Shown here one piece after another: positions 3,753-64,000 of a stretch of 64,000 bases of DNA. Source of the stretch: Halobacterium jilantaiense (lineage in GTDB: Archaea > Halobacteriota > Halobacteria > Halobacteriales > Halobacteriaceae); assembly GCF_900110535.1 (NCBI RefSeq), contig NZ_FOJA01000001.1:2453393-2517392 (forward strand). The letters are read 5' to 3'. The translations under genes were made by a program, and so were the position numbers. Under the pieces are notes generated by a model. The model searched no databases. It saw only the letters and a list, made by a program, of their open reading frames with translations, and was not told the origin of the DNA. Numbering within the stretch: the first letter of the stretch is position 1; each line of letters begins with the position of its first letter.

Positions 3753-3992
3753 ACACGGGGCTTCGCCCGAACGCGGCAAAGAGGTTGCGGGTCTCCCCCG
3801 ACGGCTACGTCTCGCTACGTGAGCCGATTAGCAATGTCTTGAGCGGTGGCCGGGATGGAGCCTGTAACCGAGCCGCTTCGACGATGCACGGCACGCTTCG
3901 GTTTAGCGGCGACCGCCCACTGGTCGACGTCGACGACCCGGTCGCGCCCGACGGCGGGACCCTCGGTCCCCGCGCGCTCATTCCGAGGGCTC
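3753..3992. other. gap with foldable sequence and a doubtful 47-codon ORF
   Basis: Between the starts/stops of two minus-strand genes. The segment at about 3844-3918 can fold: GGTGGCCG (from 3845) pairs with CGACCGCC (to 3917) around an inner helix of AACCGA-GC with GCTTCGGTT. A second short hairpin, GGGACC/GGTCCC with loop CTC, is at 3956-3970. A plus-strand ORF (3893-4036) has coding-like GC3 for its first 30 codons, then runs through the hairpin repeat into the asparaginase gene. I cannot decide between a structured RNA, a gene remnant and neither. Confidence 0.3.
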
Positions 3993-4012
3993 TCACTGCG
4001 TTCGAGCCCTCG
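3984..4012 (-). repeat. GANCGNAGNGA hairpin at the stop codon of the asparaginase gene
   Basis: A 9-bp perfect stem (CGAGGGCTC with GAGCCCTCG) encloses an 11-base loop. Read on the minus strand the loop is GAACGCAGTGA, an exact fit to the consensus GA-N-CG-N-AG-N-GA of the array at 61.7-61.9 kb; the 13-mer CGAACGCAGTGAG occurs identically there. The TGA inside the loop is the stop codon of the adjacent peptidase gene, and its last seven sense codons lie within the hairpin or directly beside it. Confidence 0.8.
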
Positions 4013-4910
4013 CCGTCTGCATCGCTTCGGAGTTGAACGCCTCCCCGTACTCGCCGTCGCTGTCCAGCACGATGACGCCGGCCGACGACCCGGTGAGTTC
4101 GCCGAACTCCTCGATGGCGCGGTCGGCGGCCGCCTGCGCGCCCAGCCCGTTCTCCAGGTGGCGGACGGCCCGCCGCGTCAGCGTGGTCTTCGCGATGTCC
4201 TCGCCGGCCCCCGTCGCGGACGCAGCGCCGGCGGGTGACGCGTAGAACCCGGAGCCGATCTGGGGGACGTCACCGACCCGGCCCGCGAGCGCGAGCCACC
4301 GGCCGCCCGTGGAGGTGGCGGCAGCCAGCGTCTCCCGGTCGAACGCGACGGCACCGACGGTGTCGTGGTCCTTCTCGTAGCCGGCTTCGTCGTCGCTCGA
4401 TCCGTCCTCGCGACCGCCGGGGTCCGTCTCGCCGAACTTGTCCCGAATCCAGTCGAGGTGGTCGGTCGGCGAGCCGTCGGGGTGGTTGTCGAGGTCGTCC
4501 CAGCGCTCCTGCGTGTCGTCGCTCCAGAGGTCGCACTCGACGTCGACGCCGACGTCGGCGGCGAAGTCGACGGCGTGAACGCCGGCCAGCTGGACGTGCG
4601 GGGTGTCTTCCATGACGGCGCGGGCGACGGAGACGGCCGCCTCGACGCCCGGCATCGAGGCTGCCGCGCCCGCCTCGCGGTCGCTGGTCATAACGCCCGC
4701 GTCCGTCCGAATCACGCCGTCGGACTGCACCGCGCCGCCCGTGCCGGCGTTGAAGCGGGTGTCGGCTTCCAGCACCCGAATCGCCGCTTCGACCGCGTCC
4801 ACCGGGTCGGTCTCGGCCGCGCCGACGTCGGCCGCTTCGTCCAGTGTCGCCTGTCGAGGCTCCGGCTCGTCCGGGCTCCCGCCCGCGCCGCCGTGTACGA
4901 TGACTCGCAT
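3993..4910 (-). CDS. isoaspartyl peptidase / plant-type L-asparaginase (Ntn hydrolase)
   Basis: A 305-residue member of the Thr-dependent asparaginase-2 family, which cleaves beta-aspartyl peptides and hydrolyses asparagine after self-cleavage. The start ATG gives 'MRVIVHGGAG', the family's usual opening. The autoproteolytic nucleophile is T184 in 'DHDTVGAVA'; the substrate-binding segments TSTGGR (199-204), GRVGD (~210-214) and IGSGFYA (~218-224) follow. The loop before the cleavage site (residues ~140-182) is long and acidic. The C-terminus 'QTARARTQ' is encoded by a repeat hairpin and may not be ancestral. Divergent from cetZ, with 102 bases between starts. Confidence 0.93.
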   Translation of the reverse strand: MRVIVHGGAGGSPDEPEPRQATLDEAADVGAAETDPVDAVEAAIRVLEADTRFNAGTGGAVQSDGVIRTDAGVMTSDREAGAAASMPGVEAAVSVARAVMEDTPHVQLAGVHAVDFAADVGVDVECDLWSDDTQERWDDLDNHPDGSPTDHLDWIRDKFGETDPGGREDGSSDDEAGYEKDHDTVGAVAFDRETLAAATSTGGRWLALAGRVGDVPQIGSGFYASPAGAASATGAGEDIAKTTLTRRAVRHLENGLGAQAAADRAIEEFGELTGSSAGVIVLDSDGEYGEAFNSEAMQTARARTQ

Positions 4911-20350: not shown

Positions 20351-21949
20351 TCACTCCAGCAGCGACGACCCCGTCATCGCCGCTGGCCGGTCGAGGCCGA
20401 GCACGTCCAGCAGCGTCGGGGCGACGTCCCGGAGCGCGCCGCCGTCGCGGATGGAGTGCCCGCCCGACAGGTCCGCACCGGTCGTCGACGGGTCCAGCGA
20501 GACGAACGGCACGGGGTTGAACGTGTGAGCGGTGTGGGGCTCGTCGGCCGTCCCCATGTCGTCGGCGTTCCCGTGGTCGGCAGTCAGGAAGACGTGCGCG
20601 CCCTGCTCGCGGGTCGCTCCACTCCCCGCTCGCCCATTCGGCGACTCGCTCTGCTCGTCGCCCGCCTCGGTGAGCGCGGGTACCAGCCGCCCGAGTTCCC
20701 GGTCGACGGCCTCGACCGCTTCGACGGCGGCGTCGAAGTCGCCGGTGTGCCCGACCATGTCTGGGTTCGCGTAGTTCAGGACGAGCACGTCCGGGTCGTC
20801 GGTCGCGAGCGCGTCCAGCACGGCGTCGGTGACCGCGGGCGCGCTCATCTCGGGCTGCTGGTCGTAGGTCGGCACGTCCGGGCTCTCGACGATGCTCCGG
20901 CGCTCGCCCTCGAACTCGACCTCGCGGCCGCCGTTCAGGAAGTACGTCACGTGGGCGTACTTCTCGGACTCGGCGACTCGGAACTGGGTGCGCCCGGCGT
21001 CGGAGAGCACCGAGCCGAGCGTGTCCGCTGGCTCCTCGGCCGGGAACGCCACCGGGAGGTCGAACGTCTCGTCGTACTCGGTCATCGTCACGACGTGGGC
21101 GTCCGGCGGACTCGTCTCGACGCCCTCGGCTTCCCAGTCTCCGGGCTCGATGTCGGCGAGCAGCCGCGTGAGCTGTCGGGCGCGGTCGGCGCGGAAGTTC
21201 GCGAACACGACGGCGTCGCCGTCCGAGAGCGCCGCGCCGCCCTCGACGAGCGTGGGTTCGACGAACTCGTCGGTGTCGCCGCGCTCGTACGAGTCGGTGA
21301 CAGCGTCGACCGCCGAGGCGGCGCGGTGGTCGGCGTCCCGGTCAACGATCGCATTGTACGCGGCTTTCGTACGCGCCCAGTTCTGGTCGCGGTCCATCGC
21401 GTAGTACCGCCCCGAGGCGGTCGCCACGTCGCTGGTCCCGTGCTCGTCGGCGACGGCTTCGAGGCTGGCGAGGTAGTCCTCGCCGCCGGTCGGAGACGTG
21501 TCCCGGCCGTCCGTGAACGCGTGGACGGCCGCCTCGACGCCCCGGTCGGCGGCGCACTCCACGAGCGCGTGGATGTGTGTCTGGTCGGAGTGGACGCCGC
21601 CGTCAGAGACGAGGCCGAGGACGTGCAGCGTCCCGCCGGTCTCGGCGACGTGGTCGAGCGCGCCCGCGATGGCGTCGTTCCCGCAGAGTTCGCCGGCCGC
21701 GATGGCGTCCTCGATGCGCGTGTACGCCTGCTTCACGACGCGGCCCGCGCCGATAGTGAGGTGGCCGACCTCGCTGTTGCCCATCTGTCCGTCGGGCAGC
21801 CCCACATCCCGGCCGGACGTGGTCAGCGTCCCGAACGCGCCTCGGTCGGCGTACTCGTCGAAGTTCGGAGTGTCGGCGGCTTTCACGGCGTCTCTCCTGT
21901 CGTGGTCGCCGAGCCCCCAGCCGTCCAGAATCACGAGCGCGGCCTGCAT
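20351..21949 (-). CDS. gpmI: 2,3-bisphosphoglycerate-independent phosphoglycerate mutase
   Basis: A 532-residue glycolytic/gluconeogenic enzyme of the alkaline-phosphatase superfamily, interconverting 3- and 2-phosphoglycerate with two metal ions. 'LVILDGWGLGDH' gives the first metal Asp; the phosphoserine is S59 in GQMGNSEVGH; 'SDGGVHSDQTHIHAL', 'FTDGRDTSPTGG', 'GRYYAMDRDQNW', 'FRADRARQL', 'MVGHTGDFDAAVEAVE' and 'TADHGNADDM' complete the sites. An unusual insertion near residues 429-447 ('GDEQSESPNGRAGSGATRE') is encoded by two repeat hairpins; it lies between conserved blocks, probably in a surface loop. Confidence 0.95.
   Translation of the reverse strand: MQAALVILDGWGLGDHDRRDAVKAADTPNFDEYADRGAFGTLTTSGRDVGLPDGQMGNSEVGHLTIGAGRVVKQAYTRIEDAIAAGELCGNDAIAGALDHVAETGGTLHVLGLVSDGGVHSDQTHIHALVECAADRGVEAAVHAFTDGRDTSPTGGEDYLASLEAVADEHGTSDVATASGRYYAMDRDQNWARTKAAYNAIVDRDADHRAASAVDAVTDSYERGDTDEFVEPTLVEGGAALSDGDAVVFANFRADRARQLTRLLADIEPGDWEAEGVETSPPDAHVVTMTEYDETFDLPVAFPAEEPADTLGSVLSDAGRTQFRVAESEKYAHVTYFLNGGREVEFEGERRSIVESPDVPTYDQQPEMSAPAVTDAVLDALATDDPDVLVLNYANPDMVGHTGDFDAAVEAVEAVDRELGRLVPALTEAGDEQSESPNGRAGSGATREQGAHVFLTADHGNADDMGTADEPHTAHTFNPVPFVSLDPSTTGADLSGGHSIRDGGALRDVAPTLLDVLGLDRPAAMTGSSLLE
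20609..20629 (-). repeat. GANCGNAGNGA-type hairpin inside gpmI (copy 1)
   Basis: On the minus strand GCGGG and CCCGC enclose an 11-base loop GAGTGGAGCGA. The stem sequence equals that of unit 2 in the 61.7-kb array. The inner G:C pair is kept and the triloop is closed by T.G. Confidence 0.65.
20640..20662 (-). repeat. GANCGNAGNGA-type hairpin inside gpmI (copy 2)
   Basis: On the minus strand GGCGAC and GTCGCC enclose the 11-base loop GAGCAGAGCGA. The loop differs from the consensus at one fixed position (A for G in the triloop). Together with copy 1, ten bases away, it forms an in-frame insertion. Confidence 0.65.
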
Positions 21950-58404: not shown

Positions 58405-59301
58405 TCAGGCACCCCCGAAGCGACGCTCGAAGAACCCATCCGCTTCGTCCTCGTCGTCCTCGCCGTCGGTCGCGTACTGGCTGCCGCCCCAGTCGGCCCT
58501 CCGTTCGAGCAGGCTCACCAGCTGACTCATCGTCATCGTGATCGCGAGGTAGAACACGCACAGCCAGACCAGCGGCGTCCACGGGTCGAGCTGGTTGCTG
58601 TTGACGCTCCGGAACACGCTCATCAGCTCCGGCACCGCGATGACGGTGAGCAGTGAGGTGTCTTTCACCAGAATAATCTGGTCGTTCCCGATTGCCGCCA
58701 GCGCGTTCCGCCACGCCTGCGGCAACACGACCTCTCGGAGTGCCATGACGCGGGACATCCCCAGGGAGCGAGCGGCCTCCATCTGGCCGTCCGGCACGGC
58801 GTCGATGCCGCCGCGGATGGCTTCGCCCACGTACGCCGCGTGGTTGAGTGTCAGTCCGATGACTGCGGCCGGGACCGCCCAGTTGACAATCGGGAACTCC
58901 CCCGTCGCCCACAGCCGCGGGATACCGAAGAAGATGATGAACAACTGGAACAGCAGCGGCGTCCCGCGGAAGAACTCGACGTAGCCTTTCGCTATCTTCC
59001 CGGTGATCCGGGAGGTCGAGATGCGACCGAGGCCGACGAACACGCCGAGTGTCACGGACAGCACGCTGGAGATAGCGACGATGCGGATGACGAGCCAGAA
59101 CGCCTCCACGAACCGCGGAAAGATGGTTTCGAGGAGACTGAAATCGACCTGTGTGGAGACAATCCACGTGACGAGTGACCCGACGAGCGCCAGGAACGCG
59201 AGCGAGACCACGACCCCGAGCCGCCGCACGAGGCGGTCCCGCATCAACACGCCGCCGCTCGTCTCACTGCTTGGTTCTCCGTCGACGGTAGAGTCAGACA
59301 T
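58405..59301 (-). CDS. polar amino-acid ABC transporter permease (GlnP-like)
   Basis: A 298-residue permease with a 20-residue acidic N-terminal tail and five or six helices. The EAA loop 'EAARSLGMSRVMALREVVLPQA', which docks with the ATPase, is at ~170-191. 'FFRGTPLLFQLFIIFFGIP' and 'NHAAYVGEAIRGGIDAVPDGQ' are the signature of the HisM/GlnP branch. One permease gene suggests a homodimer. Between the binding-protein and ATPase genes. Confidence 0.94.
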   Translation of the reverse strand: MSDSTVDGEPSSETSGGVLMRDRLVRRLGVVVSLAFLALVGSLVTWIVSTQVDFSLLETIFPRFVEAFWLVIRIVAISSVLSVTLGVFVGLGRISTSRITGKIAKGYVEFFRGTPLLFQLFIIFFGIPRLWATGEFPIVNWAVPAAVIGLTLNHAAYVGEAIRGGIDAVPDGQMEAARSLGMSRVMALREVVLPQAWRNALAAIGNDQIILVKDTSLLTVIAVPELMSVFRSVNSNQLDPWTPLVWLCVFYLAITMTMSQLVSLLERRADWGGSQYATDGEDDEDEADGFFERRFGGA

Positions 59302-59322
59302 TGTAGGAGCGTGAATCCGCAG

Positions 59323-60129
59323 TTATCCGTCGAAGTACTCGTTGTAGATCTCGTCGTACGTGCCGTCCTCCCGAATCGCGGCGAGCGCGTCGTTGACCTC
59401 TTGGCGGAACTCGTCGTCGTCCTGCCGGAAGCCGATGCCGTAGTTCTCGACAGTGAGCGTGTAGTACGGCGGCGCGTTCTCGTCCTGCGCTGCGGCCTCG
59501 CCCTCGCCCTCCAGGAACATGACACCATCATTCTCGTTGACGAAGGACGCGGTGACGGTGTTGTCGTTGATGACGGCAGACACCTGGTTGTTCAGCAGAG
59601 CGTCGAACGCGCCCGTAATCTGGTCGAAGCTCTTGATTTCGAGGTCGCCGGACAGGTCCTCTTTGAGCCCTTCGGCGGCCGTCTCACCGGTCGTCCCCTT
59701 CTGGACGCCGACGTTCTTCCCGGCGAGGTCCTCGGGGGACGTGATGTTGTCCGCCTCGAGGACGGCGATAGTCTGGTAGGCGGTGAAGTACGGGTCCGAG
59801 AAGTCGACGGACTCCTTCCGCGTCTCGTTGATGGTCATCGCGCTCATGATGATGCGGAAGTTCCCGTTGTTCAGCGACCCCATGATGCCGTCGAAGGACG
59901 TCCGCTTGAACTCGTAGTCGCGGTCCATCTGCTCCGCGAAGATTGCCTCGGCGATGTCCACGTCGAACCCGACGAGTTCGCCCTCCTTGGTCTCGTACTC
60001 GAAGGGCTTGTACGGGATGTCCGACCCGATGACGATTTTGTCGCTGTTGCCGAACAGTCCGAGACAGCCACTCAGCGCCAGTGCTGACGATGCACCCGCG
60101 GTCGTTTTGAGGTAGTCACGTCGTTGCAT
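59323..60129 (-). CDS. polar amino-acid binding lipoprotein (GlnH-like)
   Basis: A 268-residue substrate-binding protein with a Tat motif (QRRDYLK) and lipobox 'ALALSGC'. The mature part has 'IGSDIPYKPFEYETKEGELVGFDVDIAEAI' (alpha-amino-acid clamp with Asp), 'SFDGIMGSLNNGNFRIIMSAMTINETRKESVDFSDPY', 'GKNVGVQKGTTGE' and 'AALAAIREDGTYDEIYNEYF', all of family 3. It binds a polar amino acid on the outer face. Promoter TATAAAA lies at leaderless spacing; first gene of the operon, 21 bases before the permease. Confidence 0.95.
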   Translation of the reverse strand: MQRRDYLKTTAGASSALALSGCLGLFGNSDKIVIGSDIPYKPFEYETKEGELVGFDVDIAEAIFAEQMDRDYEFKRTSFDGIMGSLNNGNFRIIMSAMTINETRKESVDFSDPYFTAYQTIAVLEADNITSPEDLAGKNVGVQKGTTGETAAEGLKEDLSGDLEIKSFDQITGAFDALLNNQVSAVINDNTVTASFVNENDGVMFLEGEGEAAAQDENAPPYYTLTVENYGIGFRQDDDEFRQEVNDALAAIREDGTYDEIYNEYFDG

Positions 60130-60151
60130 ACCACCCGCGTTGAACTCCACC

Positions 60152-60158
60152 TATAAAA
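60152..60158 (-). promoter_or_regulatory. TATA box of the amino-acid ABC operon
   Basis: TTTTATA on the minus strand, 23-29 bases before the ATG at 60129, in an A/T-rich context (CTATAAAACATTTTTTCG on the plus strand). Confidence 0.65.
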
Positions 60159-60226
60159 CATTTTTTCGGGTGTCGGGCTGTTTCCCCCGCAAATTCTGCA
60201 CGTCTCGGTAACCGATGACACCCGCC

Positions 60227-61663
60227 TCAGAAGAACTCGTCGAGGCCGCGCTGGCTGTCGTCGTCGCCCGAGTCGTGCTCGTCGTCGGCCGCTGTCTCCT
60301 CGTCGTCGTCCGCCAGCACGTCTTGGTCGTCCTCGTCTTCGTCGTCTCTGACCGCGCCCTCGAACGCGCCGCCCGAGTGGTCGACGGCCGCCGCCTCGCG
60401 GAGCTCCTCGGCGTCGGCGACGATGGACTCCACCTTGTTCGTCGTCTCCCCCGAGCCCGTGACGAAGGAGACGTGTTCTTCCTGCATCTCGTAGGCGGCC
60501 GCCATCGCCACCGTCAGCTCCCGGTTCTTGCAGTGGTGGGTCATCGCCGCGAGGAACGGCAGCACGTCGTTGCGCGCGGTCGCCATACTGCAGCCCGCCG
60601 TCTCGGCGATGTGGCGGGCGACGTAGTCGCGTTTCTCTCGGGTCGCCCGCGAACTCCCGAGTTTCCGCCAGTAGCTCGGCGGGCCGTAGCGCGTCCAGCC
60701 GCCGTGGTCGTGCTGGCGCGAGGCCGCGACGCCGGCGGCGATGTTGTCGGTCGCGTACCGCCAGTACGAGTAGTTCTGGGTCGCCCGCACGCGGCCCAGC
60801 CAGATGTCGGCGTTCGAGAGGAACTCGTACGCGACCGCGAGTTCGTCGCCGTAGTAGTCCTTCGGGACGTTGTCCTCCACCCAGTTCAGGAGGTCGTCAG
60901 GCGTCTCGTCCACGTCGTAGGCGGCCTGCAGCGCTTCCTCTGCGCCGTGGGTCTTGATGAGGCCGTCGAGGAAGTCGAAGACGCCCTGCGAGCGGTCGCG
61001 CTCGCCCATCACCACGTCGTCCTCGGTGAGTTTGCGGTCGGTCTCCGCGAGCGCCTGCAGGTCGTTGACCGCGGACCGCAGGTCTCCGGAGTTCTGCTCG
61101 GCGATGGCTTTCAGCGCGTCCTCGTCGTAGTCGATGTCCTCCCGTCGGCAGATGTCCCGCAGCACGGGGACGATGGAGCGCTTCGAGACGTCCCGGAACT
61201 CGATGTCCTGCGTGGCGTTCCGGAGCGCGGAACTCATGTCGTAGTACTCGTTCGCGACGAGGACGACGGGCTGCGGGGCCTCCTTCACGAGTCGCGTGAT
61301 GGCCGCGCTCCCGCCGCGGTCGACGTTCCCGTGGAGGTTGTCCGCCTCGTCCAGCAGGACGAGCTTCTTCCCGCCGGAGCCGCCGGTGAGCGTCCCCGAC
61401 TTCGCCGCCTCGCCCGCGACGCGCTCGACCACGTCGGCCGTGCGCTGGTCGCTGGCGTTCAACTCCACGACGTCCCAGCCGGCGTCGCTCGCGAGCGCGT
61501 GGGCCGCCGACGTCTTCCCGACGCCGGGGCTGCCGTGGACGACGACCGCCTCCCGGTGGTCCTCCCACGTCTCCGCCCACTCCGCCAGCGCGTCCCGGGC
61601 CTTGTCGTTGCCCCGGACCTCGGAGAGCGACGACGGACGGTACTTCTCCGTCCAGTCTACCAT
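60227..61663 (-). CDS. rfcL: replication factor C large subunit
   Basis: A 478-residue clamp-loader subunit that opens PCNA onto primed DNA with the small subunits. AAA+ motifs: Walker A GSPGVGKT (44-51), Walker B 'LVLLDEADN' (D105/E106), sensor 1 'VLVANEYYDMSSALRNATQ', and 'SGDLRSAVNDLQAL' (sensor 2). A collar domain follows (~215-400). The tail (~415-478) is a long run of Asp and Glu ending in 'QRGLDEFF', a PCNA-interacting (PIP) box. It has no archaeal RFC-small gene nearby. Start: 'MVDWTEKYRPSSLSEVRG'. Confidence 0.96.
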   Translation of the reverse strand: MVDWTEKYRPSSLSEVRGNDKARDALAEWAETWEDHREAVVVHGSPGVGKTSAAHALASDAGWDVVELNASDQRTADVVERVAGEAAKSGTLTGGSGGKKLVLLDEADNLHGNVDRGGSAAITRLVKEAPQPVVLVANEYYDMSSALRNATQDIEFRDVSKRSIVPVLRDICRREDIDYDEDALKAIAEQNSGDLRSAVNDLQALAETDRKLTEDDVVMGERDRSQGVFDFLDGLIKTHGAEEALQAAYDVDETPDDLLNWVEDNVPKDYYGDELAVAYEFLSNADIWLGRVRATQNYSYWRYATDNIAAGVAASRQHDHGGWTRYGPPSYWRKLGSSRATREKRDYVARHIAETAGCSMATARNDVLPFLAAMTHHCKNRELTVAMAAAYEMQEEHVSFVTGSGETTNKVESIVADAEELREAAAVDHSGGAFEGAVRDDEDEDDQDVLADDDEETAADDEHDSGDDDSQRGLDEFF

Positions 61664-61706
61664 TGCTCTCGGGTAGGCAGGAGTTCCGGTTAGGTGTTGC
61701 GGACAG

Positions 61707-61731
61707 CGTTCCCGACCGAAGGGAGGGAACG
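61707..61731 (+). repeat. array hairpin 1
   Basis: Stem CGTTCCC/GGGAACG, loop GACCGAAGGGA. Inner pair C:G, then C:G and triloop GAA. Confidence 0.8.
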
Positions 61732-61738
61732 AGGCGGA

Positions 61739-61759
61739 GCGGGGAGCGAAGCGACCCGC
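61739..61759 (+). repeat. array hairpin 2
   Basis: Stem GCGGG/CCCGC, loop GAGCGAAGCGA. Inner pair G:C, then C:G and triloop GAA. Confidence 0.75.
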
Positions 61760-61766
61760 GGAGCGT

Positions 61767-61789
61767 GGGGACGACCGGAGGGAGTCCCC
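61767..61789 (+). repeat. array hairpin 3
   Basis: Stem GGGGAC/GTCCCC, loop GACCGGAGGGA. Inner pair C:G, then C:G and triloop GGA. Confidence 0.78.
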
Positions 61790-61800
61790 CGGATGGTCGA

Positions 61801-61821
61801 ACGGCGAGCGGAGCGAGCCGT
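61801..61821 (+). repeat. array hairpin 4
   Basis: Stem ACGGC/GCCGT, loop GAGCGGAGCGA. Inner pair G:C, then C:G and triloop GGA. Confidence 0.75.
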
Positions 61822-61829
61822 GAGGAGAG

Positions 61830-61854
61830 CGTGCCCGAACGCAGTGAGGGCACG
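61830..61854 (+). repeat. array hairpin 5
   Basis: Stem CGTGCCC/GGGCACG, loop GAACGCAGTGA. Inner pair A:T, then C:G and triloop GCA. Loop identical to the copy at 3984-4012. Confidence 0.8.
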
Positions 61855-61890
61855 TTATTGTGAGCGGTGACTATCGGGAGCCGCGAACAG

Positions 61891-61915
61891 CGTTCCCGAG
61901 CGAAGTGAGGGAACG
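61891..61915 (+). repeat. array hairpin 6
   Basis: Stem CGTTCCC/GGGAACG, the same as hairpin 1, with loop GAGCGAAGTGA. Inner pair G.T wobble, then C:G and triloop GAA. Confidence 0.8.
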
Positions 61916-61981
61916 TGGCAGCCCATTCGTGAGCCGGCAGTCGCCCCCACAGTTTTGCGGCGGCCTCGCGTAGTTGTCAGT

Positions 61982-62428
61982 ATGAGTCACACGAGAGGCG
62001 TTCACCTGGACGCCGAGGAGCGCGACGCGTTCCTGGGTGCCGGTGGCACTGGCGTGGTCTCGTTCGCGGACGCGAGCGGGCCGCCGCACTCGATTCCGGT
62101 CTCGTACGGGTACGACGACGACACGGAGTCGTTCTTCTTCCGGCTCGCGTACCACGCGGACACGGAGAAGCCCGACCCCGAGGACGCCGCGGTGTCGTTC
62201 GTCGTGTACGGGGAGACCGACGAGGGGTGGCGCAGCGTAGTGGCGAAAGGCGACCTGGAGTCGACCGACGAGGACGCCGTCTCGACGTCGGCGCTGGAGG
62301 CGCTCCGGCGCGTGGACATCCCGCTCGTGGACGTCTTCGAGCGGGCACCCGTGGAGACGGATTTCGAGTTCTTCCGGCTGCAGCCGACCGAGTTCACGGG
62401 ACGGAAGGAGGCACCCCCCGACGAGTGA
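61982..62428 (+). CDS. PPOX-fold flavin/nucleotide-binding protein
   Basis: A 148-residue protein of the pyridoxamine 5'-phosphate oxidase-like split-barrel fold. The start 'MSHTRGVHLDAEERDAFL' follows a TTTT promoter element by about 26 bases. 'GTGVVSFADASGPPHSIPVSYGYDDDTESFFFRLAY' forms the core beta hairpins, and 'VSFVVYGETDEGWRSVVAKGDLE' is the second half. These proteins bind FMN or F420 and include reductases and heme-related enzymes. No neighbour indicates the cofactor. Confidence 0.88.
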   Translation: MSHTRGVHLDAEERDAFLGAGGTGVVSFADASGPPHSIPVSYGYDDDTESFFFRLAYHADTEKPDPEDAAVSFVVYGETDEGWRSVVAKGDLESTDEDAVSTSALEALRRVDIPLVDVFERAPVETDFEFFRLQPTEFTGRKEAPPDE

Positions 62429-62522
62429 CGCGCCGGGCGACCGCCGCGGGGAGCGAGCGCGACTCGCCGAAATCGGGGCCGGACGCCACACGAGTTTTCC
62501 AGATTGGTCGCGTACGTCCGGT

Positions 62523-63605
62523 ATGTCCGTACTGTCCGACGCGACCGGGTTCGGCGAGCGCGTCTTCTCGGAGTTCTCCGAGAAGAACGTCCCGTTCATG
62601 GCGGCGGGGCTCGCGTACAACGCCTTCGTCTCGCTCGCGCCGCTGCTCGTCGTGTTGTTCCTCGTGGTGTCAGTCGTGGGCGGCGGCCTCGAGGACCGCG
62701 TCGTGACGGCCAGCGGGACGTGGCTGCCCGGCCCCATCGCGGACGTCGTCCAGCAGGTGTTCCAGGGCGACGCCGCAGGCGGGACCGCCTCCGTCGTCGG
62801 TCTCGTCGTGGTGCTGTGGGGGACGCTGAAGATTTTCCGCGGGCTGGACACCGCGTTCTCGGAGATCTACGAGACGACCGGCGAGAGCAGCTTCGTGGAC
62901 ACGCTGAAGGACGGCGTCGTCGTGTTCGTCGCGCTGGTCGCTGCAGTCGTCGTCACGGTCGGTGCGGCTGCCGTCTTCGCGGCGTTCTCCGAGACGGTGC
63001 CGTACGTCGACGCGCTGACGCCGCTGGTGCTGGTCGCGGGGCTCGTCCTCGCGTTCTACCCGATGTTCTACGTCTTCCCCGACGTGGACCTCGGCTGGCG
63101 CAGCGTGCTGCCGGGCGTGCTGTTCGCGGCGGTCGGCTGGGCGGCGTTCCAGGCGCTCTTCCAGGTGTACCTCGCGTTCAGCGACCCGACCGCGGGGAGC
63201 TTCTTCGGCGGCGTCGTCATCGTCGTCACGTACCTCTACTTCTCGGCGTTCGTGTTGCTGCTGGGCGCGGTCGTCAACGCCGTGGTCGGGAACTACTCCT
63301 CGGGGACACCCGGCGGTGTCGGCGGCGGTGCGGTGGGGTACGACACGGACGTCGACGACTCGATGCGCGGCGACCGACTGGCGAAGTACCTCCAGGACCT
63401 CCGCGAGGACATCACGGGCCACTACCGGGGGATGCGGCCGCGCACGGACGGCCTGCCGCGCCGCGAGCGCCCCGGCGGTGACGTCGACGTCATCGAACAG
63501 CACAGCGAGGACGCCGACGGGGAGACCCGGCGCGTCACCCTCACGTGGCAGGCGTCCGGTGACGACAAGAAGTCGGGCGACGCAGCCGATTCGGGGGTGC
63601 GCTGA
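62523..63605 (+). CDS. YihY/BrkB-family inner-membrane protein
   Basis: A 360-residue protein with six helices (~25-55, 90-115, 140-165, 170-195, 200-235 and 240-265). 'FMAAGLAYNAFVSLAPLLVVLFLV' and 'PVLPGVLFAAVGW'-like 'SVLPGVLFAAVGWAAFQALFQVYLAF' are the family's signature regions. The C-terminal ~95 residues are soluble, acidic and variable. YihY/BrkB proteins are conserved but their function is unsettled. It may be cotranscribed with the following acetyltransferase gene, 12 bases away. Confidence 0.92.
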   Translation: MSVLSDATGFGERVFSEFSEKNVPFMAAGLAYNAFVSLAPLLVVLFLVVSVVGGGLEDRVVTASGTWLPGPIADVVQQVFQGDAAGGTASVVGLVVVLWGTLKIFRGLDTAFSEIYETTGESSFVDTLKDGVVVFVALVAAVVVTVGAAAVFAAFSETVPYVDALTPLVLVAGLVLAFYPMFYVFPDVDLGWRSVLPGVLFAAVGWAAFQALFQVYLAFSDPTAGSFFGGVVIVVTYLYFSAFVLLLGAVVNAVVGNYSSGTPGGVGGGAVGYDTDVDDSMRGDRLAKYLQDLREDITGHYRGMRPRTDGLPRRERPGGDVDVIEQHSEDADGETRRVTLTWQASGDDKKSGDAADSGVR

Positions 63606-63617
63606 CCGGGGCCAACG

Positions 63618-64000
63618 ATGACTGGTGACTCACACCCCGACCCCGGATTCCCCGAGGTCCTCACTACGCAACGCCTGCGTCTGGAGCGCTGCTGCCGCGA
63701 GAACGTTCCCGTCCTGGAGCTCTATCGCGCGGCCTCCGACCGGAATCCGCACATCGACGCGGTGACCGAACACCTCACCTGGGAGCCACACGAGTCGGTG
63801 CAGGCCTCGCGGGAGACGCTCGCGCACTTCGAGCAGACCTGGGCGGACGGCGACATCGCGACGTACGCCGTCCGACCGAAGGCGTCGGAGCCGACGCCGG
63901 ACTCCCTGACGGGGTCGCTCGACGGCGAGCGCGGCGTCCTCGCGGGCACCTGCGCGCTGACCTGCGACTGGGCTGCGGACTGCGCGACGCTCGGCGTCTG
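63618..64000 (+). CDS. GNAT-type N-acetyltransferase, 5' part (cut by the window end)
   Basis: The frame from 'MTGDSHPDPGFPEVLTTQRLRLERC' runs off the right edge with no stop. The opening 'LTTQRLRLERCCRENVPVLELYRA' and the spacing to 'TYAVRP...GVLAGTCALTCDW' match RimJ/RimL-type acetyltransferases, in which the acetyl-CoA pyrophosphate loop would lie just beyond the cut. The substrate, possibly a protein N-terminus or an amino compound, is not identifiable. Confidence 0.8.
   Translation, partial: MTGDSHPDPGFPEVLTTQRLRLERCCRENVPVLELYRAASDRNPHIDAVTEHLTWEPHESVQASRETLAHFEQTWADGDIATYAVRPKASEPTPDSLTGSLDGERGVLAGTCALTCDWAADCATLGV

Follow-up and report, generated by a model that had tools for sequence, protein, structure and literature searches.

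A haloarchaeal interspersed palindromic element that resembles REP and RPE repeats and is probably selected for its single-strand fold

REP-like repeats have so far been described mainly from bacteria and have been recognised by their sequence. GTAG REPs and REPINs, which go with a RAYT gene of the Y1 type, resemble the element described here in being imperfect palindromes that are interspersed in the genome and believed to work as hairpins of single-stranded DNA (ssDNA) (PMC2817692, PMC3733652). Like the haloarchaeal element, the CGTC-tagged REPs are short imperfect palindromes present in dozens to hundreds of copies per genome, mostly intergenic and in part in-frame within genes, where their dimers encode 20-30 residues; the paper on them, which describes bacterial species, names TGTC as a tag variant, lists intragenic copies including RPE-4 and RPE-6, and gives no known or dedicated transposase (Di Nocera et al. 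2013, PMC3733652). Rickettsia RPEs are palindromes inserted in-frame in genes (PMC3733652; Ogata et al. cited in PMC10969869). A further parallel is provided by the telomere palindromes of Streptomyces, closely packed hairpins capped by GNA triloops, with sheared purine pairing and compensatory changes (PMC7205883). A search of the openly licensed literature for the loop sequences and for haloarchaeal repeats found no description of the present element as a repeat, so that an earlier description elsewhere may exist.

The window analysed here is the whole stretch of 64,000 nucleotides of Halobacterium jilantaiense DNA. The array under study occupies a 318-bp intergenic region (61664-61981) with divergent genes on either side, as called by a simple codon-usage caller. 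On its left, the start of rfcL, encoding the replication factor C large subunit (60227-61663, minus strand), faces the array, and the DNA of this gene matches a Natrinema thermotolerans gene that carries the annotation "replication factor C large subunit". The right neighbour encodes a 148-aa protein (61982-62428, plus strand) that presumably belongs to a pyridoxamine-oxidase-like family, judged by eye from its translation. The first-pass annotation had reported six hairpins with 11-base loops, and all six loops were found exactly as claimed on the plus strand (61714-61724, 61744-61754, 61773-61783, 61806-61816, 61837-61847 and 61898-61908), with the inner pair that flanks CG-N-AG formed in each of them. 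The stems, given there as 5-7 bp, do vary in length but are slightly longer, with 7, 5, 6, 5, 9 and 8 bp including G-T pairs. They were also said to differ, which holds for their letters, but they fall into two constrained, alternating families, A (CGTGNNC/GNNCACG) and B (GA-RCGNN/NNCGY-GA). The sole break in the spacing of the array is filled by a seventh hairpin, a variant with the loop GACTATCGGGA (61869-61879) that is absent from the earlier description. The array comprises about 3.5 copies of a 61-nt two-hairpin unit, the A-B dimer, all on one strand.

Two covariance models were used, R1 built from nine hairpins (25 nt) and R2 representing the A-B dimer, with E-values that are rough. All units of the array lie on the plus strand. 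Dimer 1 (61705-61763) joins hairpin A CGTTCCC-GACCGAAGGGA-GGGAACG to hairpin B GCGGG-GAGCGAAGCGA-CCCGC (R2 54.4 bits, E 2.5e-8). Dimer 2 (61764-61825) consists of A GGGGAC-GACCGGAGGGA-GTCCCC and B ACGGC-GAGCGGAGCGA-GCCGT with an outer GA/GA step (62.6 bits, E 4.5e-10), and dimer 3 (61828-61888) of A GCGTGCCC-GAACGCAGTGA-GGGCACGT and the variant B hairpin (75.5 bits, E 8.3e-13). The half unit at the end (61889-61922) holds only A CGTTCCC-GAGCGAAGTGA-GGGAACG, with a partial R2 match of 25.6 bits (E 0.035) and an R1 score of 32.2 bits. RNA folding of the region recovered all seven hairpins with a z-score of -5.2 against shuffles; the array has no T-tract, and Rfam covariance models gave no match up to E 1 in positions 59000-64000 of the window. 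As a query against plasmid and phage collections, the array returned one weak plasmid match and zero phage matches. An isolated hairpin with a 9-bp stem and the loop GAACGCAGTGA (3993-4003) lies elsewhere in the window on the minus strand (3950-4012), with an R1 score of 33.8 bits and a weak R2 match (E 0.003). It overlaps a gene (3993-4910), at the 3' end of the latter, that we take by eye to be asparaginase-like.

The motif is far more frequent than composition-matched sequence would give, a comparison that the first-pass annotation had itself named as one that could refute its reading. Strict hairpins with at least 5 Watson-Crick pairs occurred 52 times in 1.2 Mb of unselected DNA from five other haloarchaeal genomes and 0 times in dinucleotide shuffles, and 45 of the 52 were intergenic, though gaps make up only about 16 % of this DNA. 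A scan of the organism's own intergenic DNA (65 kb, stem of at least 6) showed a clear excess over shuffles at loop lengths of 11 (52 vs 19) and 3 (54 vs 23), where many of the 3-base loops are GNA, and a weaker excess at a length of 6 (32 vs 17); coding DNA had no such peaks. Since most matches to the loop pattern alone in the own genome are chance occurrences in genes that have no stem, the covariance models were used instead. The scan of haloarchaeal genomes with such models, which had also been proposed earlier, revealed dispersed matches in the own genome and in most relatives. With R1, the own 2.95-Mb genome gave about 50 matches (E<0.05), and 36 of 40 relatives were matched as well. Across the phylum R1 matched 113 of 296 genomes, those of the own order many times each and those outside it mostly once or twice. 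R2, whose per-genome counts are lower bounds, detected about 35 dimers (E<0.001) in the own genome, at least 88 in one other genome, and dimers in 47 of 59 relatives. Zero dimers were found by R2 in the 2.4-Mb genome of one congener (G006). Another genome (G011) carries seven tandem copies with identical scores and a spacing of 77 bp.

The constancy of the unit lies in its shape and not in its letters. Hairpin A has a stem of 7-9 bp and the form GCGTGNNC-[11]-GNNCACGTTA, while hairpin B has the form GCGA-RCGNN-[11]-NNCGY-GAGC with a second GA/GA step outside its 5-bp stem. Of 122 pairs of neighbouring hairpins on the same strand, 72 have a spacing of 28-34 nt; the peaks, at 29 and 32 nt, arise because the two hairpin types alternate at about these distances. 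In a gap-free alignment of 33 A-B dimers, 98.5 % of the cells are paired, a value in which the innermost stem pairs are favoured by selection since dimers were gathered by demanding at least 4 of the 5 innermost pairs per side. Changes on both sides are seen at 14 of 18 pairs and amount to 110 cells compared with 31.6 in shuffles, with 0 of 500 shuffles equalling the dimers, and all slid versions of the alignment used as controls fail. The inner loop pairs 12:18 and 44:50, which are outside the collection criteria, are paired in 33/33 and 33/33 dimers. Both GA/GA tandem mismatches are nearly invariant across the 33 dimers and more conserved than the pairs around them. Pair 7:23 is G-C in 19 and C-G in 14 dimers with no other state, and pair 37:57 is A-U in 17 and G-C in 14 with zero G-U intermediates. 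The earlier view that the shape is kept while the stems differ is supported by this covariation and by the paired inner loop positions.

The same rules hold in larger sets of single hairpins. Among 200 distinct intergenic hairpins whose inner positions pair and whose loop has the form GA...GA, positions 5/7 of the loop read G/A in 161, A/C in 23 and A/A in 5 cases and position 6 is free, so the triloop is GNA with ANC as its chief alternative. The inner pair is formed in 152 of 156 full-core hairpins picked regardless of it, 140 of these 156 have C or T as the stem base adjoining the GA step on its 5' side, and the step that flanks paired CGNAG cores is GA/GA in 152 of 190. In DNA, GNA triplets and, less so, ANC and AAA fold into loops of one residue closed by a sheared pair, and tandem G.A pairs adopt the sheared form in a Py-GA-Pu context. 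The constraint is strand-specific because these features could not form on the complement, whose loops would be TNC and whose mismatches TC/TC. We infer from the Py-GA-Pu steps and the GNA/ANC triloops that folded ssDNA, rather than RNA, is the selected form, which would retain the ssDNA part of the earlier suggestion of a protein-recognised ssDNA or RNA element.

Gaps with hairpins are long (median 380 bp vs 136 bp), and in 39 of 49 multi-hairpin gaps all hairpins lie on the same strand. In tandem gene pairs the motif is sense in 23 and antisense in 32 cases, a lack of sense-strand bias among intergenic copies that weakens a cis-UTR function; convergent gaps are somewhat enriched (7/74) compared with divergent ones (6/215). 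Some own-genome neighbours of hairpins are presumably rfcL, rfcS, smc/scpA, L37ae and others, as identified by eye, so that a bias in the functions of neighbouring genes may exist, and gaps at unrelated loci have mosaic pieces in common. The comparison of syntenic loci that had been suggested earlier showed that presence and absence vary between congeners, at rfcL, prs and phosphoglycerate mutase. At rfcL, 8 of 13 congeners carry the array, placed behind a common promoter-proximal sequence, and five lack it; unit number and stems of the array differ even between the own genome (G000) and G003, whose RfcL proteins are 95 % identical. Seven congeners have a prs gap of 25 bp, while that of G003 measures 149 bp and that of the own genome, which holds an array, at least 450 bp. 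At rfcS, the own genome has an array and G001 one hairpin, while eight others have none and two further loci were unreadable. These differences show that units have been gained or lost at orthologous positions, and losses could make up part of the patterns at prs and rfcL. Given this turnover between congeners and the missing sense bias, the replication or transcription signal considered at first is not supported as a fixed feature of the array site.

Several other observations were made during the survey of loci. Relatively few hairpin loci, about 4 of 38, seem to fall in the first third of the chromosome (C1:1-986000) compared with the rest. Near tRNA genes (L063, L071, L072, L074, L076 and L087), hairpins stand beside partial copies of tRNA 3' ends, as if these were remnants of integration or duplication. 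A second dispersed element combines the hairpin module with TTTTAGCGTAGCTTTTTGC...GCAGTAAAAAGGTAC at own-genome loci L064, L065, L073, L078, L079, L084, L086 and L087 (e.g. C1:986533-986790); it usually lies near the 3' end of a gene or tRNA, has related copies in other genera, among them a tandem array of 154-bp units (L292), and is possibly a two-way terminator-like or MITE-like repeat. In a 400-kb stretch of G011 (e.g. L305-L324), other intergenic repeats that end in CCCCTTTCAGTCC or CCCTTTCAATCCGCC occur beside hairpin elements. A contig of the genome collection (L216, positions 452-920) holds six near-identical CCCC-GAACGGAGTGA-GGGG units in tandem, one every 93-94 bp.

The element is also found inside genes. 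A second dimer in the window (20605-20665, minus strand; R2 60.9 bits, E 1.0e-9) lies in a gpmI-like phosphoglycerate mutase gene (20351-21949), where an in-frame stretch of 20 codons with the dimer encodes about 20 residues (AGDEQSESPNGRAGSGATRE) and has a short GGC repeat at both ends. This stretch is present in the own genome and in its sister G003, and the site is cleanly empty in 11 congeners. A Kae1-Bud32 gene carries an insert in its Bud32 portion in G000, G005, G011 and G012. In G001, G003 and perhaps G007 this insert is shortened or reduced to a remnant, and other congeners, among them G002, G004, G006 and G010, lack it; in several Bud32 copies the perfect stem of hairpin A is capped by nothing more than a GNA triloop, e.g. 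GTGACCGC-GAA-GCGGTCAC. Compared with the empty sites, both cases are in-frame insertions. All nine own-genome dimers listed inside genes are on the sense strand (9/9), and intragenic dimers encode related peptides, e.g. ...ERAGSxATRE and ...QRESxExASGxxAS; the comparison with empty sites covers the phosphoglycerate mutase and Bud32 genes, and the remaining in-frame cases are candidates. Dimers at the N-terminus of ScpA-like and MoaC-like frames (L067:3930-4100 and L485:3248-3320) may be in-frame insertions or else arrays lying upstream, over which the N-terminus has been extended in reading the frame.

Set against the known systems, the element shows the general features of REPs, being a short imperfect palindrome with many copies, mainly intergenic and variably present among close relatives. 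The feature typical of RPEs, in-frame insertion in unrelated protein genes with empty sites in relatives, is seen in phosphoglycerate mutase and Bud32. CGTC-tagged REPs carry an unpaired CGTC, TGTC or CCTC tag, whereas none flanks the hairpins in the 33 aligned haloarchaeal dimers, and their dimers are predominantly head-to-head and inverted, in contrast to the direct same-strand A-B arrays seen here. The variable stems with compensation and the second GA/GA step in hairpin B are further differences from them. GTAG REPs have a Y1 gene, a GTAG/GTGG head and conserved stems, while the own genome lacks the gene, the 33 dimers lack the head and the stems are not conserved. The telomere palindromes of Streptomyces sit at chromosome ends and involve Tap/Tpg, whereas the haloarchaeal arrays are dispersed and internal, the one in the window lying inside a 2.82-Mb contig, and have extra tandem GA steps. 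PATEs are larger, IS-related elements. PATEs and MITEs of Haloquadratum (PMC3119063), set beside the present element by description only, resemble it as palindrome-bearing, non-autonomous haloarchaeal elements.

A Y1 transposase gene (PF01797) was found neither in the own genome nor in G003, G007, G008, G012 and others, including several hairpin-rich relatives, and at 30 Y1 loci in relatives no hairpin lay within about 1.5 kb of the Y1 gene. The RAYT route is unlikely for these two reasons, and the earlier idea of a substrate for a REP-type transposase is not supported. Of the first-pass reading as a whole, the conserved shape and the REP-type repeat, the best of the options it offered, are retained, while the REP-type transposase and the fixed signal are not. 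The 61-nt dimer, the outer GA/GA step, the ANC loops, the in-frame insertions and the occurrence of the 11-base module in REP-like repeats of bacteria go beyond that reading. The module itself extends to bacteria. In a scan of 84,980 genomes for CCCGANCGNAGNGAGGG, the inner pair, which the pattern does not require, was formed in 138 of the 149 matches listed, compared with about 37 % by chance. Many of the matches listed are bacterial and have the form TGTCATCCC-GAGCGNAGCGA-GGGATCT, and among the bacterial module matches listed the tag position is TGTC or CGTC in 67 of 137. To judge by sequence, these bacterial repeats resemble the CGTC-tagged REP super-family, and their likeness to the haloarchaeal repeats would be one in kind.

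The array is best read, with a probability of about 0.7, as a haloarchaeal interspersed palindromic element of REP/RPE-like type, a 61-nt hairpin pair on one strand that is selected for its single-strand fold. In the single-stranded state, each half would fold compactly into a stem, a sheared tandem G.A step, one pair, a C:G pair and a GNA or ANC triloop, with the GA/GA steps and the triloop making the fold specific to one strand. A trans-acting factor that recognises this shape, and not the stem letters, would copy or insert the unit at new sites, a mobility suggested by the comparison of species. Tandem duplication and recombination between copies would build and reshuffle the arrays, and insertions would survive where they do little harm, that is between genes, at protein N-termini and in surface loops, with a short hydrophilic peptide added to the protein. 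The points against a REP/RPE-like element are that the search for a Y1 transposase partner found none, that no conserved unpaired tag was seen and that the stems vary far more than those of known REPs. More tentatively, and in our view rather doubtful, the 11-base module GA-N-CG-N-AG-N-GA with its ANC variant may be an ancient ssDNA shape code, read by a non-Y1 enzyme that mobilises structure-defined repeats in haloarchaea and bacteria, including into genes.

The main rival is that the arrays serve the host as sites of a protein that recognises DNA hairpins in replication, repair, nucleoid organisation or segregation, with turnover as expected for redundant sites. The very strong shape constraint, the dense regular spacing and the wide occurrence of the same module in bacteria are consistent with it, as are the GNA palindromes of Streptomyces telomeres with their compensatory changes (PMC7205883). 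Such a role is nevertheless unlikely given that sites are not conserved between congeners, that G006 does without any detected dimer, that insertions lie inside genes, and that the matches show no evident strand or position pattern. Some own-genome neighbours, which we take by eye to be rfcL, rfcS and smc/scpA, would suit it. Less probable again is an RNA element, whose hairpins would work at the transcript level, ending transcription, directing processing or binding proteins; individual copies, e.g. those with T-tracts near gene ends, may be of this kind. The folding z-score, the slight enrichment of convergent gaps, the hairpins followed by T-tracts near gene ends in the related element, and a large excess of G.T over A.C at the first unpaired position past the stem, in a count that includes related copies, speak for it. 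The sense and antisense counts in tandem gene pairs, the window array without a T-tract, the missing G-U intermediate at the covarying pair 37:57 and the absence of an Rfam match in the region searched speak against it.

Two further explanations have a low probability. Template switching between the arms (quasi-palindrome correction) could keep stems perfect as a mutational by-product, and paired positions do often change on both sides with few intermediates, as at pair 7:23. However, it would turn the GA/GA steps into ordinary pairs, yet these are nearly invariant, including the outer step between paired segments, and the greater conservation of the mismatches than of the surrounding pairs argues against pure correction. 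It also leaves the GNA/ANC loop rule and the new sites unexplained. As a full explanation template switching is contradicted and has very little probability, although it could contribute to stem homogenisation. Chance or base composition might be suspected in a GC-rich genome (69 %) where the loop pattern alone also arises in genes; it is ruled out by 0 hairpins in shuffles compared with 52 observed and by the covariance-model matches and their controls, and its probability is next to nothing.

If the REP/RPE-like reading is right, haloarchaea harbour a family of repeats, spread throughout the group, whose conserved trait is the single-strand fold, and a single genome supplies dozens of cases of base-pair covariation. 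Because the element invades genes in-frame, its insertions can be dated and serve as natural experiments on what proteins tolerate. Tagged REPs of bacteria contain a matching module and are likewise without a known transposase, which points to a common factor that mobilises or recognises the repeats. The contrast between congeners in which about 30-90 copies were detected and one that has none may offer a direct phyletic route to this factor.
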